Source: Streptomyces griseoviridis
Lineage (GTDB): Bacteria; Actinomycetota; Actinomycetes; Streptomycetales; Streptomycetaceae
DNA length: 64,000 nt
Reading direction: 5' to 3'
Assembly (NCBI RefSeq): GCF_005222485.1
Contig: NZ_CP029078.1
Location: 7,751,501-7,815,500 of the forward strand
The notes below the pieces were generated by a model, which worked only from the letters and a program-made list of their open reading frames with translations, was not told where the DNA came from and did not search any database. The translations under genes and the position numbers were made by a program. Position 1 is the stretch's first letter, and each line of letters starts with the position of its first letter. Below, piece after piece: positions 42,179 to 60,473 of the stretch.

Positions 42179-42292
42179 GTGAGGACGTCACCGGGGATCG
42201 TGTCGGATGAGCTGTGGGACCGCATGGAGCCGCTGCTGCCGCGGCGTGAGCGTCCCGCTGCGTGGCCGACTCCTCCCACGTCGGGGCGCTGA
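42179..42292 (+). pseudogene. N-terminal remnant of an IS5-type transposase
   Basis: 37 codons reading PGIVSDELWDRMEPLLPRRE closely match the start of actinomycete IS5-family (IS1647-like) transposases. After ERP the frame loses similarity and stops. The rest of the element is missing. It marks a decayed insertion at the left edge of the RiPP locus. Confidence 0.75.
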
Positions 42293-42557: not shown

Positions 42558-42701
42558 GTGTGGTGTGGTTCTGGGTCTTACCGAGGCCGCTTTGATCTCC
42601 GGTTCGTTGTCGCCTGGCAGGTTGCCCTCGCCGTAGACGGTGGTCTGGCGTTGGGCGCGTGGTTGCCGACGGCGGCCCGCCACCGTGACGGGATCACGCA
42701 C
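42558..42701 (+). pseudogene. Possible IS3-type transposase fragment
   Basis: The frame reads GRFDLRFVVAWQVALAVDGG, then LALGAW and RHRDGITHAPG. This resembles, by eye, the DDE-domain stretch of IS3 OrfB proteins (VGWQVA, LALDAL, GLTHHS). The similarity is short and degenerate, so this is only a suggestion. It overlaps the ferredoxin 3' end on the other strand. Confidence 0.3.
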
Positions 42702-43023
42702 GCCCCAGGAGCACCCGCACCCCAAGTCCACCCGCACCCCAAGTCCCACCCGCACCCCCAATCACACCCCCACCCCCGATCACACCCCCCACCCCCTCCT
42801 CAGGGAAGACGCTCCGCCCCGTTCCCCGGTCGGTGATCGTGATGGCCTCCATCGGGCACGTGAACGCGGCGTCCAGTACGCGGTCTTCCGGGGTGACCGT
42901 GGGGGTGGTCGGTTGTGATCTGCCGGTGTTGTTCAGTGTGAAGCGGCCTGGGGCGGTGCTCGCGCACACGCCTGAGCCGATGCAGCGACGGGTGTCGACC
43001 TCGACCGTCCAGTCGTCCGCCAT
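42694..43023 (-). CDS. [3Fe-4S] ferredoxin, with repetitive C-terminal extension
   Basis: 109 residues. The first 70 are a Streptomyces P450 ferredoxin: RRCIGSGVCASTAPG (C-x5-C) and FTCPMEAITI with the third cysteine, enough for a 3Fe-4S cluster. Such ferredoxins are usually 63-70 residues. Here about 35 Gly/Val-rich residues follow (GGVIGGGG repeats), encoded by a run of CACCCCC-type direct repeats. The normal stop appears to have been lost. It is the likely electron donor for the P450 at 46789. Confidence 0.88.
   Translation of the reverse strand: MADDWTVEVDTRRCIGSGVCASTAPGRFTLNNTGRSQPTTPTVTPEDRVLDAAFTCPMEAITITDRGTGRSVFPEEGVGGVIGGGGVIGGAGGTWGAGGLGVRVLLGRA
42706..42800. repeat. CACCC-type direct repeats in the ferredoxin 3' end
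   Basis: Imperfect units such as CCGCACCCCAAGTCCA and CACACCCCC follow each other. Read on the minus strand they encode the Gly-rich ferredoxin tail. Confidence 0.75.
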
Positions 43024-43553
43024 GTGCTTTCCCTTCGTCCACGCGCGCTGTGCCCCCCTTGCTCCCCTCCCCGCGGAATTCTCTTTCCAGAGGCATATGC
43101 AATTTCCGGCGACCGTGCCGGTGCAATGGTGAGAATGGTGACTGTGCGGCGCTGAGAGGGGTGTCGCCTCAAATTACCCGGCCCTTTTTTCGGGTGAAAG
43201 GCCGTCGCAATCAGCCATCTTCGACCCGGGCTGGAACCGGCTCCGTGGCCGGGACCGGTCCGCCGTTCGGCACCTCGTATGGATCGTGGCCGCCGCGTCG
43301 GCGCATGTTCTTTCTCCGCTTCTCAGTGCGCGGAGGTCGAGCCCGCGGGCGGGGCGGGGGCCGGCGGGTGGCGTCGGTGCTCGACATGATCCGCCGCGGT
43401 GTCGAGGAGCGCGTTCGGGACGATGTGCCGCTGTCCTGATACCCGCTGCTTTTCCCGCTCCGTTGTTGGCCTCGCCGGTTTCTCCCCTGACGATTCTCCT
43501 GCCGGTGAACCCGACCGAGCACGGTAGGGCCGGTGAGGTGAAAGGAATCCTCC
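43024..43553. other. 530-base leader region before the RiPP precursor
   Basis: No recognised gene. It lies between the divergent ferredoxin and peptide genes, so it should hold both promoters. It contains an AT-richer patch at 43080-43200 with a T6 run (43183-43190). Open frames here have no RBS and biased composition. Confidence 0.55.
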
Positions 43554-43640
43554 ATGAACGAGGAAATCGAGCAGCTCACGGACGAAGACCTTCCCGAGCT
43601 CGCGCTGATGGTCGACATTCCCTCGCGCGACGAGTCCTGA
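43554..43640 (+). CDS. Candidate RiPP precursor peptide (28 residues)
   Basis: ATG with AAAGGA six bases upstream opens a 28-codon frame followed by TGA. The N-terminal half is acidic and leader-like (MNEEIEQLTDEDLPEL). The C-terminal half is ALMVDIPSRDES. It has no Cys or Thr after residue 9 and two serines (24 and 28), two late aspartates, one Pro and one Arg. The next genes encode HExxH and YcaO peptide-modifying enzymes. Size, acidity, RBS and position all fit a RiPP precursor. It does not match FxSxx, bottromycin or thiopeptide precursors as I know them. It is far shorter than annotation cut-offs, so easily missed. Confidence 0.75.
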   Translation: MNEEIEQLTDEDLPELALMVDIPSRDES

Positions 43641-43722
43641 CGGCACCCCCGCACATCGCACCTGCGCGGCGGGCCTTCCCGGGCCCGCCGCACGTCGCTG
43701 CCGAGAACCCGGAAGAGGGTGC

Positions 43723-44694
43723 ATGCGCGTCGAACCGGATGCCCAGGAGGCCGTCCACGAGCGGACCCAGGTGCTGCGGCGCCTGCGGCGCGTACTGGAA
43801 CGGGCGGAGCTGACGCCGCCCGAGCCCGACACGCTGCGCCATCCGGCGGCGGCCGAGGTCGCCCACCTCGCCCAACACGCCCTGCGGTCAGGCCCCTTGG
43901 CACCGGAGCGGCAGAGCCGTCTGGCCGCACGCCTCGGACAGGTGCCGCCCGCCGCCTTCGGCCCCGCCGACCCGCAGGACCATCTGAACCGGAGCGTGAC
44001 CCGGGCGCTGCGCGCCATCCCGGAGCGCAAGGGCGCCGACGGGCAGCCGGTCACCGCCGTCCTCACCGTGTGGGACGAGCGCGAGCGCGCGGCGTTGACG
44101 TCGGCCCTCGGCCTGCTCGGCCGGGTCTGGCCCGAAGCCGCCGCCGAGGTGCGGGAGACGGTCACCGAGATCGCGCTGCTCGACGGCGAGGCCATCGACG
44201 GGTTCACCGACTTCACCGTCCACGGTGCCGTCCTGGTGCACCGGGCCCGGCTGACGGACAGTGCCGCCGGGCTCCCGGGTCCCGTGCGGTTCGCCGAGGC
44301 CCTGGTGCACGAGGGCACCCACACCCGGTGCAACGCCGCCGCCCTGACCGCCCCCTTCCTGACCCCCGACGACGCCCCCGGCGACGCCCACAGCGACCAG
44401 CCGCGGGACGCCGACGGCACCGGCCGCGTCCGGGAGTTGCTCGTCGAGACCCCGCTGCGGGCCGACCCCCGGCCGCTGACCGGCCTGTTCCAGCAGACCG
44501 TGGTGCTGGCCCGCAGCGTGGAGCTCTACCGGCGGCTCACCGGTCTCGGCCCCGCGGTCGACTCGCGGCGCGCCACCCTCCTGCGCGGAGCCCACCAGGC
44601 CGTGGACACCCTGGGCACGCACACCGGCCGGCTCACGGACCACGGGAAAGAGCTGCTCGCGGAGTGCGACGGGCTCATCGGAGCGGCCGCGTGA
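43723..44694 (+). CDS. HExxH putative peptide beta-hydroxylase (RiPP maturation)
   Basis: 323 residues. The motif H196-E-G-T-H200 in RFAEALVHEGTHTR matches the HExxH peptide-modification family (TIGR04267 type), some members of which are iron/2-oxoglutarate-dependent beta-hydroxylases of Asp, His or other residues in RiPPs. FTVHGAVLVHRARL before it and LVETPLRADPRPLTGLFQQ after it are the usual flanking segments. The start ATG is 82 bases after the peptide gene. Its stop overlaps the YcaO start (GTGA). Substrate inferred: an Asp or Ser in the neighbouring peptide. Confidence 0.85.
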   Translation: MRVEPDAQEAVHERTQVLRRLRRVLERAELTPPEPDTLRHPAAAEVAHLAQHALRSGPLAPERQSRLAARLGQVPPAAFGPADPQDHLNRSVTRALRAIPERKGADGQPVTAVLTVWDERERAALTSALGLLGRVWPEAAAEVRETVTEIALLDGEAIDGFTDFTVHGAVLVHRARLTDSAAGLPGPVRFAEALVHEGTHTRCNAAALTAPFLTPDDAPGDAHSDQPRDADGTGRVRELLVETPLRADPRPLTGLFQQTVVLARSVELYRRLTGLGPAVDSRRATLLRGAHQAVDTLGTHTGRLTDHGKELLAECDGLIGAAA

Positions 44695-45983
44695 CGCCCT
44701 GGACACCCCAGGTGTTCGCGCCCTACCCGGGCCGGCCCGACCTGCTGTTCGCGCGGGTGGCGGCCCGCTCCGCCGCGTTCGACGGCACCAGCGCCGCCGG
44801 GGGAGCGCCGGTCCTCGTCGGCAGCGCCGCGGGCCACGACCGCGACCAGGTCGCCGTCGGCGCGCGCGGTGAGCTGCTGGAGCGGCTCGGCAACGTGATG
44901 GCGGGGCGCGCGGCCGAAGCAGCCGCCGAACTGGTCGGCACCCGCGCGGAACTGCGCCGCACCGGGACACCCGTCCTCGAACCGCACCCGGGCGCCGACA
45001 CCCGACGGCTCTGGGTGCGCGGCCGGACCGCGGGCGGCGCCGAGGTGTGCGTCCCGGCGGGCGCTGCCTTCCTCCAGCACCGGCCCCCGGCCGGCTGCGA
45101 CGCCGCCAGGACGGCGGGCTCCACCGGCATCGCGGCCCACCCCGACCGGCGGGCAGCGGTACGCCACGCGGCATGGGAAGTACTCGAACGCGACCTCGTA
45201 CGGCGCAGCTGGTACGGGCTCACGGACCGGCCACCGCACCTGATCCCGTTCGACGCCCCGCCGGTGCTCGCCGCCCACCTCGACGACAGCGCGCTCACCA
45301 CGACGGCCTTCGCCCTCCCCGCCCCGCCCGCCACGGCCTGCGTCGTGGTGTGCCTGCACCGGCCTGACGGCACCGGCCAGGCGTTCGGGGCCCGCTGCGG
45401 ACCGGCGGACACGCTCGCGGCGCTCACCGAGAAAGCCGCCTACGAGGCGCTCATGGTCCGGTGGAGCATCCGCACCCCGGTGGCCCGCACGACCTGGGCG
45501 CGCTGGCACGGGACGACGCCACCGACGACCGCCGTCCAGCACGCGCTGTGGGCCTTCCACCGCCAGGACAGCCTGGCGCTGTGGAACGTGGGTCCGTTCT
45601 CCGCCGCCGCCCCACCCACGTACGCCTCGACGTCGGAGCCGCCCGCGTACGCCTCGACGTCAGATCCGTTCGCGTACGGCGGGACATCCGACCCGCGCGC
45701 GCCCGGCGCGAAACCGAACCCGCGCGCGCCCGGCGCGAAACCGAACCCGCGCGCGCCCGGCGCGCCATCGGCGCCGTCCCCGCCATCACCCCCGCCCCCG
45801 CCCCGCCCCGCGCCGGACCCGCTCGACGTGCTCGCCGTTCACACCGGTCAGGACGTCGTCCTGATCGACAGCACCTCGGCCGCCGCCCGCGACGCCGGGG
45901 TCGAGGTGGTCCGCGTGCTCGCCCCCGGCACCCGCCCGCTGCCGTCCGGGACCGGACCCGGGCACCCCCACCCCTTCGGCTAG
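44691..45983 (+). CDS. YcaO-domain peptide-modifying enzyme
   Basis: 430 residues. The first ATP-site segment is VGARGELLERLGN (57-69). The second is STGIAAHPDRRAAVRHAAWEV then LERDL (about 144-169). The C-terminus ends GHPHPFG, as in many YcaOs. These proteins activate backbone amides with ATP to give azolines, thioamides or amidines. No E1-like partner, TfuA or dehydrogenase is seen, so it acts alone or with the HExxH protein. A low-complexity insert of nine-residue repeats (PRAPGAKPN and YASTSDPF-type) separates the core from the last 60 residues, about positions 305-375. GTG at 44691 overlaps the upstream stop. Confidence 0.9.
   Translation: MTPWTPQVFAPYPGRPDLLFARVAARSAAFDGTSAAGGAPVLVGSAAGHDRDQVAVGARGELLERLGNVMAGRAAEAAAELVGTRAELRRTGTPVLEPHPGADTRRLWVRGRTAGGAEVCVPAGAAFLQHRPPAGCDAARTAGSTGIAAHPDRRAAVRHAAWEVLERDLVRRSWYGLTDRPPHLIPFDAPPVLAAHLDDSALTTTAFALPAPPATACVVVCLHRPDGTGQAFGARCGPADTLAALTEKAAYEALMVRWSIRTPVARTTWARWHGTTPPTTAVQHALWAFHRQDSLALWNVGPFSAAAPPTYASTSEPPAYASTSDPFAYGGTSDPRAPGAKPNPRAPGAKPNPRAPGAPSAPSPPSPPPPPRPAPDPLDVLAVHTGQDVVLIDSTSAAARDAGVEVVRVLAPGTRPLPSGTGPGHPHPFG
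45619..45765 (+). repeat. 27-bp in-frame repeats within the YcaO gene
   Basis: Two sets of 27-bp units: three copies encoding YASTSEPPA-type nonapeptides, then two and a half copies encoding PRAPGAKPN. The last set is nearly identical at DNA level, so expansion is recent. Confidence 0.9.
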
Positions 45984-45990
45984 GAGCCCC

Positions 45991-46725
45991 ATGCCATCCG
46001 ACACCGCGCGGCCGAGCCCCGGCTACGCCGCCGACTTCGCCGACGACTACGACCGCTGGTTCGGCAAACCGGGGATCACCGGCGCGACCGTCGACGCGCT
46101 CGCCGCCCTCGCAGGTCACGGGCCGGTCCTCGAACTCGGCGTCGGCACCGGCCGCGTCGCCCTGCCGCTGCGGGCACGCGGTCTGGCGGTGCACGGCGTC
46201 GACGGGTCCGAGGCGATGGTGCGCAGGCTGCGGGCCAAGCCGGGCGGCGACGAGATCCCGGTGACCGTCGGCGACTTCGCCGAGGTGCCCGTCGACGGCA
46301 GCTTCAGCCTGGTCTACCTGGCCGGCGGCACCTTCGCGGAACTGCCCGACCAGGCGGCCCAGGTCCGCTGCTTCGGCAACGCGGCGGCGCGGCTGGCACC
46401 GGGCGGCCTGTTCGTGCTCGACGCCCATGTGCCCGAGGCGCTGGCGGCGGCCGGACCCGAGATCGTCGCCGAGGGCGAGGACCTCCTGGTGCTGTGCCAC
46501 CGCAGGCTCGACACCGCGGCGCAGCGCTACCACTCGCACTACGTCGTCCACGAGGGCGGAGCCACCCGGCACCTGCGCGTCGCGTTCCGCTACGCGGGAC
46601 ACGGGGAGCTGGACCTGATGGCCGCTCAGGCGGGCCTGCGTCTCAAGGAGCGCTGGGGCGGCTGGACCGGGGCGCCCTTCACGGGCGACAGCGCCTACCA
46701 CGTCTCCGTCTACGAACGCCCCTGA
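45991..46725 (+). CDS. Class I SAM-dependent methyltransferase
   Basis: 244 residues. The SAM motif is VLELGVGTGRVALPLRARGL, followed by the acidic strand end VHGVDGSEAM and motif DFAEVPVDGSFSLVYLAGGTF. An RBS (AGGAG) sits between the YcaO stop and this ATG, seven bases apart. In a RiPP locus it would methylate the peptide (N-terminus, carboxylate or side chain) or the attached sugar. The target is not predictable here. Confidence 0.92.
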   Translation: MPSDTARPSPGYAADFADDYDRWFGKPGITGATVDALAALAGHGPVLELGVGTGRVALPLRARGLAVHGVDGSEAMVRRLRAKPGGDEIPVTVGDFAEVPVDGSFSLVYLAGGTFAELPDQAAQVRCFGNAAARLAPGGLFVLDAHVPEALAAAGPEIVAEGEDLLVLCHRRLDTAAQRYHSHYVVHEGGATRHLRVAFRYAGHGELDLMAAQAGLRLKERWGGWTGAPFTGDSAYHVSVYERP

Positions 46726-46788
46726 CCCACCACCCGACCAGCGCGCCGACCAGGACGGCCACCCCTTGACGCGTCGACGGAGGCCCCG

Positions 46789-47976
46789 ATGAACCAGCCG
46801 GAACAGCTCAGGGAGTTCCCCTTCCCGCACCGGGACGGCCTCGACCCCCTGCCCGAGTTCGCCGAACTGCGCCACAGCGCCCCGGTCGTCCGGGTCCGGA
46901 TGCCGAGCGGGGACACCGCGTGGCTGGTCACCCGGCACGCGGACGTGCGCCGGGTGCTGGCCGACCCGTGCTTCAGCCGGGCACGGGCGACCCGGGGCTC
47001 GGGACCGCGGTACGCCCGCACGACCACGTTGCCCGACTCGATCCTCGCCGCCGACCCGCCCGACCACTCCCGGCTGCGCCGGCTGGTCGCGCCCGCCCTC
47101 GGCGGACGCCGGGCCGAGACGATGCGCGGCGCCATCGCGCTGCTGGCCGACGAACTGCTGACGGACCTGGAACGACGGCCCACGCCCGCCGACGCCGTCG
47201 CGGGCTTCACCCGGCCGCTGCCGCTGACCGTGATCTGCGACCTGCTGGGGACGCCCCGCGTCGACGGCGACCGGCTCGACGCGTGGAACGACGCGCTGCG
47301 CAGCCTCACCGCGATGCCGGACGCCGAGGTCACGGCGGCGGTCGACGACATGACCGGCTACCTGGCCCGGCTCGTCGCCGCCAAACGCGCCCACCCGGGC
47401 GACGACCTGCTCAGCGCGCTCATCGCCGCCCGGGACGCGGGCGACCGGCTGAGCCAGGACGAGCTGATCTCGTTCTGCGTCGTCCTGCTCGCCGGCGGCT
47501 ACGGCACCACCGCCGACCGCCTCGCCGGCTTGATCCACCTGCTGCTCGACCAGCCGGACCGCTACGACCTGCTGGTCCGTGAACCGCGCCGGATCCCCGA
47601 CGCCGTCGAGGAACTCCTGCGGTACGCGCAGGTCACCGTCGGGGCGAACCTGCGGGTGACCACCGGGACCGTGACGCTGAGCGGGGTGGAGATCGCGGAG
47701 GGCGAGGCGGTGATCGCGCTCACCTCGTCCGCCAACCACGACGAGGACGTCCATCCCGCACCCGACCTGCTCGACCTGACCCGGGCCGCCCCCGCCCACC
47801 TGGCCTTCGGGCACGGCGCCCACTTCTGCGTCGGGGCGCAACTCGCCCGGGTGCAGCTCCAGGAGGCGCTCGCGGCTCTGGCGCGGCGCCTCCCGACCCT
47901 GTGCGCGGCGGGCAGCCCGGAGTGGAAGCGCGGCCAGATCACCCGGTCCCCGCGGACCCTGCCGGTGCGCTGGTGA
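46789..47976 (+). CDS. Cytochrome P450 of the RiPP locus
   Basis: 395 residues, complete. Landmarks: N-terminal HRDGLDPLPEFAELR, I-helix LLAGGYGTTADRL, the ExxR motif EELLRYAQ, and the haem loop AFGHGAHFCVGAQLAR with its cysteine. This is the usual CYP105/107-like soluble form. GGAGG lies before the ATG. The ferredoxin at 42694 is the likely redox partner. It may hydroxylate or cross-link the peptide. Confidence 0.96.
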   Translation: MNQPEQLREFPFPHRDGLDPLPEFAELRHSAPVVRVRMPSGDTAWLVTRHADVRRVLADPCFSRARATRGSGPRYARTTTLPDSILAADPPDHSRLRRLVAPALGGRRAETMRGAIALLADELLTDLERRPTPADAVAGFTRPLPLTVICDLLGTPRVDGDRLDAWNDALRSLTAMPDAEVTAAVDDMTGYLARLVAAKRAHPGDDLLSALIAARDAGDRLSQDELISFCVVLLAGGYGTTADRLAGLIHLLLDQPDRYDLLVREPRRIPDAVEELLRYAQVTVGANLRVTTGTVTLSGVEIAEGEAVIALTSSANHDEDVHPAPDLLDLTRAAPAHLAFGHGAHFCVGAQLARVQLQEALAALARRLPTLCAAGSPEWKRGQITRSPRTLPVRW

Positions 47977-48026
47977 GCCGGGCGGCGGGCGCCAGGACGG
48001 CTCGCACCCGGCTCCAGGAGAACCCC

Positions 48027-48173
48027 GTGCCCCCACCGGGCCCGGTCCACCGGACCCCGGGCCGCGGCCGGCGCCCACGACCGGCCGCGTCAGCACCGGC
48101 CGACCGCGGGCGGCGCCCCCGACCGGCCGCGCCCACACCGGCCGACCGGATCGACGAGAGCGGAGAGCGGTAA
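48027..48173 (+). CDS. Possible small Pro/Arg-rich peptide
   Basis: A GTG with AGGAG six bases upstream opens 48 codons that end two bases before the glycosyltransferase ATG. An overlapping GTG at 47973 (GTGA with the P450 stop) would give 66 codons. The product is Pro/Arg/Ala-rich with an internal repeat (RRPRPAA twice), ending DRIDESGER. It may be a second peptide, a coupling ORF or chance. The reading frame fills the P450-glycosyltransferase gap exactly, which is the main reason to list it. Confidence 0.3.
   Translation: MPPPGPVHRTPGRGRRPRPAASAPADRGRRPRPAAPTPADRIDESGER
48071..48148. repeat. Two direct copies of about 36 bp, period 42
   Basis: GCGCCCACGACCGGCCGCG at 48071 recurs with few changes at 48113, each followed by CACCGGCCGACCG. 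This gives the repeated part of the small ORF. Confidence 0.8.
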
Positions 48174-48175
48174 CC

Positions 48176-49384
48176 ATGCGCATCGCGTACCTGCACGGCG
48201 GCAGCATCCCCTCCTTCTTCGCCAACGGCGTCCACGTCATGCGCATGTGCGACGCGTTCACCGGTGCCGGGCACGACGTCACCCTGTACTCCCTGCCCGG
48301 CACCTACACCGACCAGGACCCGTACACCTACTACGGCGTCAGGCACCGCTTCCCGATCCGGCTGGTCCCCGCCCCCGACTACACCCCGGACGGCTACCGC
48401 AGGCGCGGCGAGGACATCAGAGACCTGCTGACCGGTGACGCCGTCCCCGACCTCCTCTACGCCAGGGACCCGCACACCCTGGCCGTCACCGCCGACCTGG
48501 CCCCGTTCGTGTACGAGGTCCACCAACTGCGCAGGGATCTGCCCGACGGTGCGGAGAGGGCCCTGCTCAGCCATCCGCGGCTGGCGCGGATCGTGGTCGT
48601 CACCCACGCGCTCGCCCACGACCTCCGGGCGGCGTACCCGGACCTGGGCACGCTGCCGATCGAGGTCGCCCCCGACTGCGCCGACCCGCCGGACGCCGCC
48701 ACCATGGCCGGACCGCCCCCGCTGCCCGGACGCCCCGACGCGCCGACGATCGGCTACGTCGGGCACCTCTACGACGGGCGCGGCATCGACCTGATCATCG
48801 AGCTCGCCGGGCTGCTGCCCGGCTTCGACTTCCATCTGGTCGGCGGCACCACCGAGGACCGGGCCCGCTGGGAGGAGTCCTGCCCGCACCCCAACCTGTA
48901 CTTCCACGGGCACCGGCCGCCCTCCGAACTCCACCGGTACTTCCCGCTGTTCGACGTCGTCCTCGCCCCGCACCAGCCGAAGGTCTACACCTGGGGCAGG
49001 CTCGACGAGATCGGCCGCTGGACCTCCCCGATGAAGCTGTTCGAGTACATGGCGCACGGCCGCGCCATCGTCGCCTCCGACCTCCCGGTCCTGCGCGAGG
49101 TGCTCCAGGACCGCGTCAACTGCCTGCTGCGCCCGTCCGACGCGCCGCACGCGTGGGCCGACGCCCTCACCGCGCTGATCGCCGATCCGCGGCTGCGCGC
49201 CTCGCTCGGCGAGGAGGCCAGGCGGCAGTTCCTCGCGCGCTACACCTGGCGCCACCGCGCCGACCAGGTCCTCGCCGGCCTCGTACCGCTGGGCACAGGC
49301 GAACTCGGGGCGCCCGCCACCGGGGGCGCCGCCCTCTCGTCCGCCGGCCGCCACGCGGCGGACACCGCGGCCGTCAACGACTGA
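48176..49384 (+). CDS. GT4-like glycosyltransferase
   Basis: 402 residues of the GT-B fold. The N-terminal domain begins RIAYLHGGSIPSFFANGVHV, and the C-terminal nucleotide-sugar domain has TIGYVGHLYDGRGIDLIIEL. The donor-site region is SPMKLFEYMAHGRAIVASDLP, with the EX7E-type Glu of retaining family GT4. It would transfer a sugar from an NDP donor. In this locus the acceptor may be a hydroxyl installed by the HExxH enzyme or P450. It is followed 26 bases later by an epimerase that could supply the donor. Confidence 0.92.
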   Translation: MRIAYLHGGSIPSFFANGVHVMRMCDAFTGAGHDVTLYSLPGTYTDQDPYTYYGVRHRFPIRLVPAPDYTPDGYRRRGEDIRDLLTGDAVPDLLYARDPHTLAVTADLAPFVYEVHQLRRDLPDGAERALLSHPRLARIVVVTHALAHDLRAAYPDLGTLPIEVAPDCADPPDAATMAGPPPLPGRPDAPTIGYVGHLYDGRGIDLIIELAGLLPGFDFHLVGGTTEDRARWEESCPHPNLYFHGHRPPSELHRYFPLFDVVLAPHQPKVYTWGRLDEIGRWTSPMKLFEYMAHGRAIVASDLPVLREVLQDRVNCLLRPSDAPHAWADALTALIADPRLRASLGEEARRQFLARYTWRHRADQVLAGLVPLGTGELGAPATGGAALSSAGRHAADTAAVND

Positions 49385-49410
49385 TCCGATCCACGCGTCC
49401 AGGGGGTTCC

Positions 49411-50391
49411 GTGCGCCACGGCAGCGATCAGCGGCAGGCACCGAGCAGAGTCGTCGTCACCGGGGCCGCGGGCTTCATCGGCTCGCACCTCGTCGAGGCA
49501 CTCCTCGCCGACGGGAACACCGTCGTCGGCGTGGACCGCCGCGCTCCCCACACCGACCCGGCGGCGGCGCTCCATCTGGAACGTGCCCTCACACACCCCC
49601 GCTTCTCCCTGGTCACCGCCGACCTGCGGACCTGCCCGCTCGCCGTCCTGTTCCGGCACTCCCGCGCGGTCTTCCACCTCGCCGCGCTGCCCGGGGTGCG
49701 CGGCTCGTGGGGCGAGCGGTTCGGCGAGTACGCGTCGAGCAACGTCTTCGCCACCGAACGCGTGGTGTCGGCCTGCGAGGAAGCCCGCGTTCCGCGCCTC
49801 GTCTACGCCTCCTCCTCCAGCGTCTACGGCAGCGGCGCGGGCGCCACCCAAGAGACGACCGCACCGCACCCCGAATCCCCCTACGCGGTCAGCAAACTCG
49901 CCGGGGAGCAGCTCTGCCTGGCCCACGCGGGCCAGGCCGGCGCCACGCTCACCGCGGTGGTGCTGCGGCTGTTCACCGTCTACGGTCCCCGCCAACGCCC
50001 CGACATGCTCATCGGCCGGGCCCTGGCGGCGGCCCTCGGCGGCCCTGAACTGACGCTGTACGGGGACGGCGGCCACTCCCGCGACTTCACCTTCGTCGGC
50101 GACGTCGTCCGCGCCGCCGTCGCCGCCGCGACCCGCCCCGCCGGCACGAGCGTCATCAACGTCGGGGCCGGCGTCAGCACCAGCGTGGCGGAGGTGCTGT
50201 CCACCGTCGAGGAGCTGACCGGCCACCCGGTGCCCGTCGTCCGCCTGCCCGCCCAGGCCGGCGACGTGGACGCCACGCTCGCCGACCGGTCGCGCGCGGC
50301 GGAGCTGCTGGGCTGGGCGCCGCGCACCACCCTCCGCCAGGGCGTCTCCCGGCAGCTCGCCCACCTCACCGCCGACGCGCTGCGCACCTGA
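49411..50391 (+). CDS. NAD-dependent nucleotide-sugar epimerase/dehydratase
   Basis: 326 residues of the extended SDR family. The NAD motif is VVVTGAAGFIGSHLVEAL, and the catalytic YxxxK is YAVSKLAGE, preceded by SSSSVYG. VVLRLFTVYGPRQRPDML is the usual substrate-binding region of GalE/WbpP-like epimerases. GTG at 49411 follows GGGGG. It probably makes an NDP-sugar (epimer) for the glycosyltransferase. It is the last co-directional gene of the RiPP locus. Confidence 0.93.
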   Translation: MRHGSDQRQAPSRVVVTGAAGFIGSHLVEALLADGNTVVGVDRRAPHTDPAAALHLERALTHPRFSLVTADLRTCPLAVLFRHSRAVFHLAALPGVRGSWGERFGEYASSNVFATERVVSACEEARVPRLVYASSSSVYGSGAGATQETTAPHPESPYAVSKLAGEQLCLAHAGQAGATLTAVVLRLFTVYGPRQRPDMLIGRALAAALGGPELTLYGDGGHSRDFTFVGDVVRAAVAAATRPAGTSVINVGAGVSTSVAEVLSTVEELTGHPVPVVRLPAQAGDVDATLADRSRAAELLGWAPRTTLRQGVSRQLAHLTADALRT

Positions 50392-57514: not shown

Positions 57515-58534
57515 ATGGAACGCTCTTCTCGCTTTCGCTCCCGCCGTATCGCCCCGGTGATCGCCGTGGCCGCGGCAGCGGCCCTGACGCTCGCGGGCTG
57601 CTCCAGCAGCTCCGGCGGCAAGAAGTCCGAGGAAGGCGCTTCCAACGCTTCCGCGGGCAAGGCCAGTACGCCCCGCATGACCGTCGCCCTGGTCACCCAC
57701 CAGGCGCCGGGCGACACCTTCTGGGACATCGTCCGCAAGGGCGCCGAGGCGGCCGCGGCCAAGGACAACATCAAGCTCGTCTACTCCGCCGACCCGAGCG
57801 CGGGCAACCAGGCCAACCTGGTGCAGAACGCGATCGACCAGAAGGTCGACGGCATCGCCATCACCCTCGCCAAGCCCGACGCCATGAAGGCCGTCGTGGC
57901 CAAGGCGACGGCGGCGAAGATACCGGTGGTCGGCCTCAACTCCGGTCTGAGCGACTGGAAGAAGCTCGGCCTGCTGGAGTTCTTCGGCCAGGACGAGACG
58001 GTGACGGGTGAGGCGCTCGGCAAGCGGCTGAACGAGGAGGGCTCCAAGCGGGCCGTCTGCGTCGTCCAGGAGCAGGGCAACGTCGGTCTGACCCAGCGCT
58101 GCGACGGCGTCAAGAAGACCTTCTCCGGCAAGCTGGACACGCTGTACGTCAACGGCACCGACATGCCGTCCGTGCAGTCGACCATCACCGCCAAGCTCAA
58201 GCAGGACAAGGCCATCGACTACGTCGTCGCGCTCGGCGCCCCGTTCGCGCTGACCTCGGTGCAGTCGGTGTCGGACGCCGGCAGCAAGGCGAAGATCGCG
58301 ACCTTCGACCTCAACAGCCAGCTGACCGGCGCCATCAGCAAGGGCACCATCCAGTTCGCCGTCGACCAGCAGCCCTACCTCCAGGGCTACCTGGCCGTCG
58401 ACTCGCTGTGGCTCTACAAGAACAACGGCAACTACAGCGGCGGTGGCGAGGCTCCCGTGCTGACCGGTCCCGCCTTCGTGGACAAGTCGAACGTGGAGAG
58501 CGTCGCCAAGTTCGCCGCGAAGGGCACCAGGTGA
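57515..58534 (+). CDS. Sugar/cyclitol ABC transporter, substrate-binding lipoprotein
   Basis: 339 residues of the periplasmic-binding-protein type I group (ribose/inositol class). Signal and lipobox: IAVAAAAALTLAGCSSS, Cys near residue 29. MTVALVTHQAPGDTFWDIVRKG is the typical start of the sugar-binding domain, followed by DQKVDGIAITLAKPDAMKAV and VVGLNSGL. It captures the substrate outside the cell for the permease and ATPase that follow. The stop overlaps the permease start. Inositol is the likely ligand from context, not from the pocket. Confidence 0.93.
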   Translation: MERSSRFRSRRIAPVIAVAAAAALTLAGCSSSSGGKKSEEGASNASAGKASTPRMTVALVTHQAPGDTFWDIVRKGAEAAAAKDNIKLVYSADPSAGNQANLVQNAIDQKVDGIAITLAKPDAMKAVVAKATAAKIPVVGLNSGLSDWKKLGLLEFFGQDETVTGEALGKRLNEEGSKRAVCVVQEQGNVGLTQRCDGVKKTFSGKLDTLYVNGTDMPSVQSTITAKLKQDKAIDYVVALGAPFALTSVQSVSDAGSKAKIATFDLNSQLTGAISKGTIQFAVDQQPYLQGYLAVDSLWLYKNNGNYSGGGEAPVLTGPAFVDKSNVESVAKFAAKGTR

Positions 58535-59610
58535 TGACCATGACCCAGCAGGCTGAGCCGGCGGTGACCCGACCGCCGGCTCCCGGCCCCCGGGCCACCG
58601 ACGGCCGCACCGCCCAACGCCCCCTGGTGCTCAGGCTGTTGGCCCGCCCCGAGGTCGGGGTCTTCCTCGGCGCCGTCGCCGTGTTCGTGTTCTTCCTGAT
58701 CGCCGCCCCCGCGGTCAGGCAGGGCAGTTCGATGGCGACGGTGCTCTACCAGTCGTCCACCATCGGCATCATGGCGCTGCCGGTCGCGCTGCTGATGATC
58801 GGCGGCGAGTTCGACCTCTCCTCCGGTGTCGCCGTGGTCAGTTCGGCGCTCACCGCGAGCATGCTCAGCTACCAGCTCAGCATGAACATCTGGGTCGGCG
58901 TGGTCGTCGCCCTGCTGGTGTCCCTCGCGATCGGCGCGTTCAACGGCTGGATGGTGGTCAGGACAGGACTGCCCAGCTTCCTGGTCACCCTGGGCACCTT
59001 CCTGATCCTCCAGGGCGTCAACCTCGCCGTCACCAAGATGATCACCGGCAACGTGGCGACCGACGACATCAGCAACATGGACGGCTTCGACCAGGCCCGC
59101 GCCCTCTTCGCGTCGTCGTTCGACATCGGCGGCGTCCAGGTGAAGATCACCGTCTTCTACTGGCTGGTCTTCGCCGCGCTCGCGACCTGGATCCTGCTGC
59201 GCACCAAGTACGGCAACTGGATCTTCGCCGTCGGCGGCAACAAGGACTCCGCGCGGGCCGTCGGCGTCCCGGTGAAGTTCACCAAGATCACTCTGTTCAT
59301 GGGCGTCGGCCTCGGCGCCTGGTTCATCGGCATGCACCAGCTGTTCTCCTTCAACACCGTGCAGTCGGGGGAGGGCGTCGGCCAGGAGCTGATCTACATC
59401 GCGGCGGCGGTCATCGGCGGCTGCCTGCTCACCGGCGGCTACGGCTCCGCGATCGGCCCGGTCTTCGGCGCCTTCATGTTCGGCATGGTCAACCAGGGCA
59501 TCGTGTACGCCGGTTGGAACCCCGACTGGTTCAAGGCCTTCCTCGGCGTGATGCTGCTCGGCGCCGTGCTCATCAACTTGTGGGTCAGCCGCACGGCGAC
59601 CCGGAGGTGA
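58534..59610 (+). CDS. Sugar/cyclitol ABC transporter permease
   Basis: 358 residues with about nine to ten transmembrane helices. The carbohydrate-uptake-2 signature is visible: [19 protein letters not shown], then [22 protein letters not shown] and the late [19 protein letters not shown] (EAA-like loop). ATG at 58534 is used; GTG 58531 (GTGATG) is as good. It overlaps the binding-protein stop. Confidence 0.94.
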
Positions 59611-59618
59611 CCCACCCC

Positions 59619-60473
<855 letters not shown>

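Follow-up and report, generated by a model that had tools for sequence, protein, structure and literature searches.

HExxH proteins related to the one described here hydroxylate His, Asp, Phe, Gln and Pro according to the available part of PMC13060819, and streptamidine demonstrates, in the accessible text of PMC8442711, that a YcaO protein does not need a precursor rich in Ser, Thr or Cys. Glycosyltransferases (GTs) and cytochrome P450s are frequent in mined YcaO-TfuA clusters, as the accessible portion of PMC8120280 reports, and these accessories are therefore not novel in themselves. Further sources, again in the portions available, describe YcaO, GT and sulfotransferase genes as neighbours of a different gene pair (decRiPPter, PMC7794033), other partners in the Std cluster (PMC13174530) and in the nitrilobacillin cluster (PMC13060819), and HExxH proteins beside MNIOs, with YcaO mentioned in a reference only (PMC12452194). 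Here, a stretch of 64 000 nucleotides from Streptomyces griseoviridis (contig NZ_CP029078.1, positions 7,751,501 to 7,815,500; hereafter the window), which is part of a single-contig 8.96-Mb genome, was analysed for a cluster in which a gene for a 28-residue peptide precedes genes for an HExxH protein and a stand-alone YcaO. The cluster appears to be a biosynthetic locus for a ribosomally synthesized and post-translationally modified peptide (RiPP), of a family for which no description was found. From the sequence comparisons below we place the probability of this assignment at about 0.85, a figure that refers to the family assignment and not to the ring chemistry.

The precursor peptide and its linkage to HExxH and YcaO genes

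The precursor peptide (MNEEIEQLTDEDLPELALMVDIPSRDES, 28 aa) is encoded on the plus strand at 43554..43640, preceded by the ribosome-binding site AAGGA at 43542-43546, and was recognised by a conserved motif and by its linkage to the HExxH and YcaO genes. The motif, DLPELALMVD (plus strand, 43587..43616), has a single match in the window, and the corresponding 30-base degenerate pattern occurs once in the 64 kb, whereas none of 100 dinucleotide shuffles contained it.

The linkage was assessed from two sides. GTDB species genomes were scanned with a YcaO alignment, which yielded 34 outside loci from Streptomyces, Kitasatospora, Embleya, Nocardiopsis, Actinomadura, Actinoalloteichus and others. 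A motif-free look at small acidic open reading frames that precede HExxH or YcaO and have a ribosome-binding site identified the same peptide in 32 of the 34. When the complete loci were searched with the motif in all six frames, the same 32 and the window each had a single match; when the 34 loci and the window (35 sequences) were each shuffled five times at the mononucleotide level, none of the shuffled sequences contained the amino-acid motif. The two loci without the peptide are both from Actinoalloteichus and also lack HExxH and the methyltransferase (MT) of the cluster; in L029 the contig stops just past YcaO. Gene order is altered in L025 and L026, where the peptide is upstream of HExxH yet both genes are downstream of YcaO. 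From the peptide side, the 30-base pattern was searched in 295 genomes of the window's genus with the reversed pattern as control. Eleven genomes matched at one site each, the window's own genome counted, and the control gave none; this is an undercount, as the peptide of G052, with Gly replacing Ala, was missed by the pattern. In all 11 cases HExxH and YcaO followed shortly after the site. Six matches came from an order-level sample of 245 genomes, of which three were new and all fell within the window's genus, and the three new sites were likewise accompanied by HExxH and YcaO. The two sets are not fully independent, some genomes being apparently shared (e.g. L060 and L021). The original prediction had staked its case on the peptide being conserved next to homologous YcaO-HExxH pairs, and it came through the test in both directions (32/34 loci; 11/11 and 3/3 sites).

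Over the 11 motif codons of 33 sequences, mean pairwise differences were 1.96, 0.41 and 4.23 at first, second and third positions, compared with 1.69, 1.46 and 5.13 in a yardstick YcaO block from 26 of the same loci; the rows were chosen by amino-acid pattern, which in itself accounts for part of the conservation at positions 1 and 2. As judged from recurrence and linkage, the peptide gene is real, and the locus holds what is required of a RiPP cluster, namely a conserved precursor gene beside genes for peptide-modifying enzymes.

The 33 peptides share the consensus block [ED]LP[ED][LFY][AGP]L[ML][VI]D[VILF][PG]. The unvaried Leu, Pro, Leu and Asp were demanded by the search pattern, and the motif-free look gave the same letters; both ends of the peptide vary in length and in letters. 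An inner block this invariant is unusual for a RiPP core and would suit a small regulatory or chaperone peptide that is not a substrate. Such a role is nevertheless very improbable, given the strict linkage, in both search directions, to two families of peptide-modifying enzymes. With the peptide taken as the precursor, the central block, LPE[LFY]ALM[VI]D[VIL]P, would serve as a combined recognition and core region, and the variable ends look like a removable leader and follower.

With the chosen start codons, 10 of the 33 peptides contain no Cys, Ser or Thr anywhere, one of these ten (L018) hinging on the choice of start codon. In 19 of 33 none of the three residues occurs from the start of the motif onwards, 13 of 33 have Ser after the motif, and the peptide of the window contains both Thr and Ser. 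An azoline on encoded residues, one of the products originally envisaged, is weakened by the ten peptides and is considered unlikely as the family-wide reaction; it may still apply to Ser-bearing members, the peptide of the window included. The residue after LPE was Leu in 11 and Phe in one of the loci with a P450, and Tyr in five, Leu in three and Phe in two of those with a PhyH oxygenase; these rows are related by descent, and no link between this residue and the type of oxygenase is claimed. A GC-rich hairpin at 43666-43691, between the peptide and HExxH genes, is of a kind that might set an excess of precursor. It is not claimed as a conserved attenuator, as z was -2 or lower in 12 of 33 loci and -1.9 in the window, relative to mononucleotide shuffles.

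The HExxH and YcaO proteins

The HExxH gene (plus strand, 43723..44694) encodes a protein of 323 aa that matches TIGR04267, the model of the alpha-ketoglutarate-dependent HExxH (aKG-HExxH) peptide beta-hydroxylases, at 59.5 bits against a cut-off of 40. It carries HEGTH at residues 196-200; across 113 sequences E197 and H200 do not vary and H196 hardly does. Its predicted structure matches the solved ChlB HExxH (8s5f) and SjiH (22ob) proteins over the whole length. By model, motif and predicted fold the protein is a member of this family and a putative hydroxylase. The same genome encodes another TIGR04267 protein (L062:5069-6943, 148.8 bits), which adjoins a 1479-aa NB-ARC/TPR protein, a different HExxH context.

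The stand-alone YcaO (plus strand, 44691..45983; 430 aa) matches PF02624 at 58.7 bits against a cut-off of 25.7 and is predicted to have the YcaO fold. Residues E61, E64, E163, E166 and E252 are invariant in 119 sequences, and the ExxER motifs align to TruD and LynD; we take these acidic residues to be the YcaO ATP-site motifs. The C-terminus is PHPFG, and the predicted structure aligns to LynD and McbD through the last residues. Tandem repeats of 27 bases at 45615-45815 encode a Pro/Ala/Ser-rich low-complexity insert of about 60-70 residues, which is shorter or missing in most of 28 aligned relatives and longer in the 461-aa relative P0001. A single YcaO match was found in the whole genome, and two in a plasmid collection. 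A YcaO that acts mainly as an ATP-dependent peptidase trimming the peptide, with the main chemistry left to the other enzymes, is improbable; the fold does not settle the reaction.

The HExxH and YcaO genes of the window overlap by four bases, and in two loci, L031 and L033, they are fused in frame (745 and 735 aa). Both fusions carry the HExxH and ExxER motifs, and the YcaO domain was recognised at residues 407-718 of the L031 protein. L032 and L011 have the peptide and YcaO without an intact HExxH gene alongside, L011 retaining an apparent stub. Each of these two genomes contains exactly one HExxH match (E up to 1e-10) at another place, and ~20 kb around those distant matches held no YcaO match and no peptide motif. 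All 32 outside loci with the peptide therefore come from genomes that encode an HExxH protein of this family. These data suggest that HExxH and YcaO belong together, whether adjacent, fused or, in two genomes, apart.

This pairing permits a proposal for the ring chemistry. As the Asp is invariant, about a third of the peptides lack ring nucleophiles, and the two proteins are constantly paired and naturally fused, HExxH, with iron and alpha-ketoglutarate, would place a beta-hydroxyl on the invariant Asp, a step to which we give even odds. YcaO, with ATP, might then activate the adjacent backbone amide and close it onto the new hydroxyl to give an oxazoline-type ring, which needs no encoded Ser, Thr or Cys; this second step is tentative. 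HExxH and YcaO might in this way form a two-enzyme module that hydroxylates an ordinary residue and then cyclodehydrates it, the L031 and L033 fusions being the bifunctional form, and this is likewise put forward with less than even confidence.

Partner, tailoring and neighbouring genes

Family scans covered the cluster genes with ten neighbours (Pfam) and five neighbours (NCBIfam), plus 13 representatives of recurrent neighbour families; negatives at the level of the loci cover the scanned proteins, which are not every protein of every locus. Neither an E1-like/ocin-ThiF partner nor TfuA was found among the scanned window proteins or the 13 representatives, and no radical SAM family among the scanned cluster genes and neighbours. 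The cluster contains no transporter; an ABC transporter of sugar type is encoded at 57557-60473, 7 kb downstream, and an ABC transporter family occurs in four loci. Alpha/beta hydrolases are found at 37.8, 39.1 and 41.3 kb, that at 37.8 kb matching Hydrolase_4 ('serine aminopeptidase, S33') at 37 bits against a cut-off of 27, more weakly than it matches Abhydrolase_6. The absences listed in the original prediction were borne out in these scans for an E1-like partner and a radical SAM enzyme, and for a transporter within the cluster, but for a peptidase the picture is less clear-cut, given the S33-type match.

YcaO-dependent thioamidation of the backbone, for which a partner encoded at another site would have to provide the sulfur, is unlikely: TfuA was missing from the proteins scanned, and characterised bacterial thioamide RiPPs pair YcaO with TfuA (PMC13174530, accessible text). 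The thioamide first suggested as a product loses ground on the same account.

The MT (plus strand, 45991..46725) is a class I S-adenosylmethionine-dependent, N-methyltransferase-like protein by its nearest solved chains, which are CcbJ (7.6e-36), YunM (5.2e-19) and the cypemycin N-terminal methyltransferase (2.9e-15). CcbJ is not known to be a RiPP enzyme. The daptide_MTase model was matched at 67.5 bits, under its cut-off of 175. A search anchored on the MT found a relative in 46 of 61 genomes, with YcaO in the short fetched stretch of 4 of 19 outside loci. The MT would N-methylate the peptide, probably at a freed amine, for which the balance of chances is roughly equal.

An amine freed by leader removal could also be used by YcaO itself, which would join it to a nearby backbone amide to form an amidine, as in streptamidine and bottromycin, with hydroxylation a separate event. 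Streptamidine-family precursors likewise lack Ser/Thr/Cys-rich regions and bottromycin YcaOs act without a partner (both in the accessible text of PMC8442711), and the ten peptides with no encoded azoline residue agree with such a route. Against it, AmiB, AmiE and FecBCDE-like genes were not seen among the scanned window proteins, no dedicated peptidase that would free the amine is evident, though one neighbouring hydrolase fits the S33-type model, and an MT resembling N-terminal methylators would compete for the amine. The amidine route is on balance doubtful.

The remaining genes would decorate the scaffold. A cytochrome P450 is encoded at 46789..47976 (plus strand; PF00067, 80.8 bits against a cut-off of 22.8), a GT4-type GT at 48176..49384 (plus strand; PF13524, PF13692 and PF00534 above their cut-offs) and an NAD-dependent sugar epimerase at 49411..50391 (plus strand; PF01370, 184.9 bits). 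The solved chains nearest to the epimerase are MoeE5 (4.7e-73) and an 'epimerase domain-containing protein', 6zl6 (8.3e-64), and it is probably of UDP-uronate type. A ferredoxin-like protein upstream on the minus strand (42694..43023; PF13370, 38 bits against a cut-off of 24.5) is the probable electron donor of the P450; tblastn located ferredoxin matches in four outside loci: they immediately follow the P450 in L002, L007 and L010, and the one in L004 precedes the peptide on the minus strand. Tandem repeats of ~18 and 35 bases at 42697-42796 make the last third of this protein low-complexity. By family, the P450 and ferredoxin would oxidise the scaffold and the GT would add a uronic-acid sugar, its nucleotide form coming from the epimerase, a step that we consider somewhat better than evenly supported.

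All the genes originally listed, from the peptide to the epimerase together with the ferredoxin, were present. Their description as separated by overlaps or short gaps holds except for the 82 bases between the peptide and HExxH genes and the 199 bases between the P450 and the GT. A RiPP locus with the peptide as precursor, an enzyme of peptide-hydroxylase type and probable glycosylation is supported by the comparisons.

Genes were counted in the 34 outside loci, up to 10 kb either side. HExxH was found in 30 and the MT in 31, the MT being missing in L011 and L029, where in both cases the contig ends, and in L030. A GT was present in 21, a P450 in 12, a PhyH oxygenase in 10, a sulfotransferase in 12 and an epimerase-family protein in 18, some of the last just 31-33% identical to that of the window. 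Most of the loci belong to one of three groups: one with a P450, in which a GT may or may not be present; one with PhyH, most members of which also have a second methyltransferase and sulfotransferases; and one of six loci that lack a GT (L027, L028, L031, L033, L034 and L035). L018 and L019 are outside all three. The six share a pair of proteins (representatives of 132 and 282 aa) that matched no Pfam or NCBIfam model, the larger being membrane-like by eye. A DMFA2_C (N,N-dimethylformamidase beta-subunit-like) protein was also observed in 7 of the 34 loci (e.g. L010:5455-6924). Judged by gene content, the peptide, HExxH, YcaO and MT look like a near-constant core, and the decoration looks modular. 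If HExxH and YcaO do act as the proposed module, lineages might dress a fixed scaffold with oxygenation by P450 or PhyH, uronic sugars and sulfate, a picture that is speculative to the same degree as the module.

Upstream of the cluster are a TetR regulator and the alpha/beta hydrolases, and downstream a DUF6328 protein and ferritin-like proteins. The flanking genes are not recurrent in the outside loci, except for the carboxylesterase family at 39.1 kb, which is present in two others, and the cluster limits were therefore taken as 42694-50391. Also upstream of the cluster, 42200-42289 may be a remnant of the start of an IS4/5-type transposase (DUF4096, 19.9 bits, under the cut-off of 34.3).

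The family is compact, with one short peptide and three near-constant enzymes, and offers a stand-alone YcaO whose peptides may be free of Cys, Ser and Thr. Once its reaction is found, the gain would be either a route to heterocycles by hydroxylation followed by cyclisation or a new class of amidines or thioamides; were the module real, azoline rings could be written into peptides without Ser, Thr or Cys. The occurrence of the HExxH-YcaO pair as adjacent, fused and separate genes makes partner dependence directly testable.

Comparison with known systems

No described YcaO-HExxH cluster, and no described class with this gene set, was found in the literature searched, in the parts of the sources available; the survey in PMC8442711 may list the peptide, unnamed, in its supplement. 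The aKG-HExxH beta-hydroxylases (ChlB HExxH, SjiH, PflC/PosC and PesO) share the HExxH motif and TIGR04267 with the protein of the window, and 8s5f and 22ob also share its fold. In the published text available they are partnered by a radical SAM domain or by an MNIO, whereas here the partner is YcaO and the HExxH protein is solo or fused to it. YcaO-TfuA thioamide clusters (PMC8120280 and PMC13174530, accessible portions) combine YcaO with tailoring by P450, GT or PhyH-type enzymes in some mined examples, but here no TfuA was found among the scanned proteins, and HExxH and an N-methyltransferase-like protein are present instead.

Streptamidine-type clusters, as described in the available part of PMC8442711, have in common with this one a stand-alone actinobacterial YcaO and a short precursor without a Ser/Thr/Cys-rich region. 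They differ in their AmiB-like, dehydrogenase and FecBCDE-like genes, which were not seen in the scans of the cluster and its neighbours, the nearby ABC transporter being of sugar type; their precursors share the triplet ALV, compared with the block LPExALMVDxP here, and the present cluster adds HExxH and the MT. Bottromycin clusters have two YcaO proteins, in contrast to the single match in this genome. The azoline heterocyclases LynD and McbD have the same fold and ExxER motifs, with an alignment that reaches the C-terminal tail, but the present YcaO has no E1-like domain fused to it, none was found adjacent, and its substrate may be entirely free of Cys, Ser and Thr. Of the features expected of linear azol(in)e peptides, encoded Cys, Ser or Thr is lacking at the family level, in view of the ten peptides without any, and an E1-like or ocin-ThiF partner was not found among the scanned proteins.

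The nearest RiPP relatives of the MT are the linaridin and daptide N-methyltransferases (YunM, CypM and the daptide MTase), from which it differs in that it is under the daptide cut-off and has CcbJ as its best solved relative. The cofactor precursors PqqA and MftA are likewise short and vary at both ends around an inner block that is invariant, but their enzymes are unrelated and the gene set here includes no PQQ or mycofactocin genes. With no named class fully matched, the cluster reads as a new candidate RiPP family.

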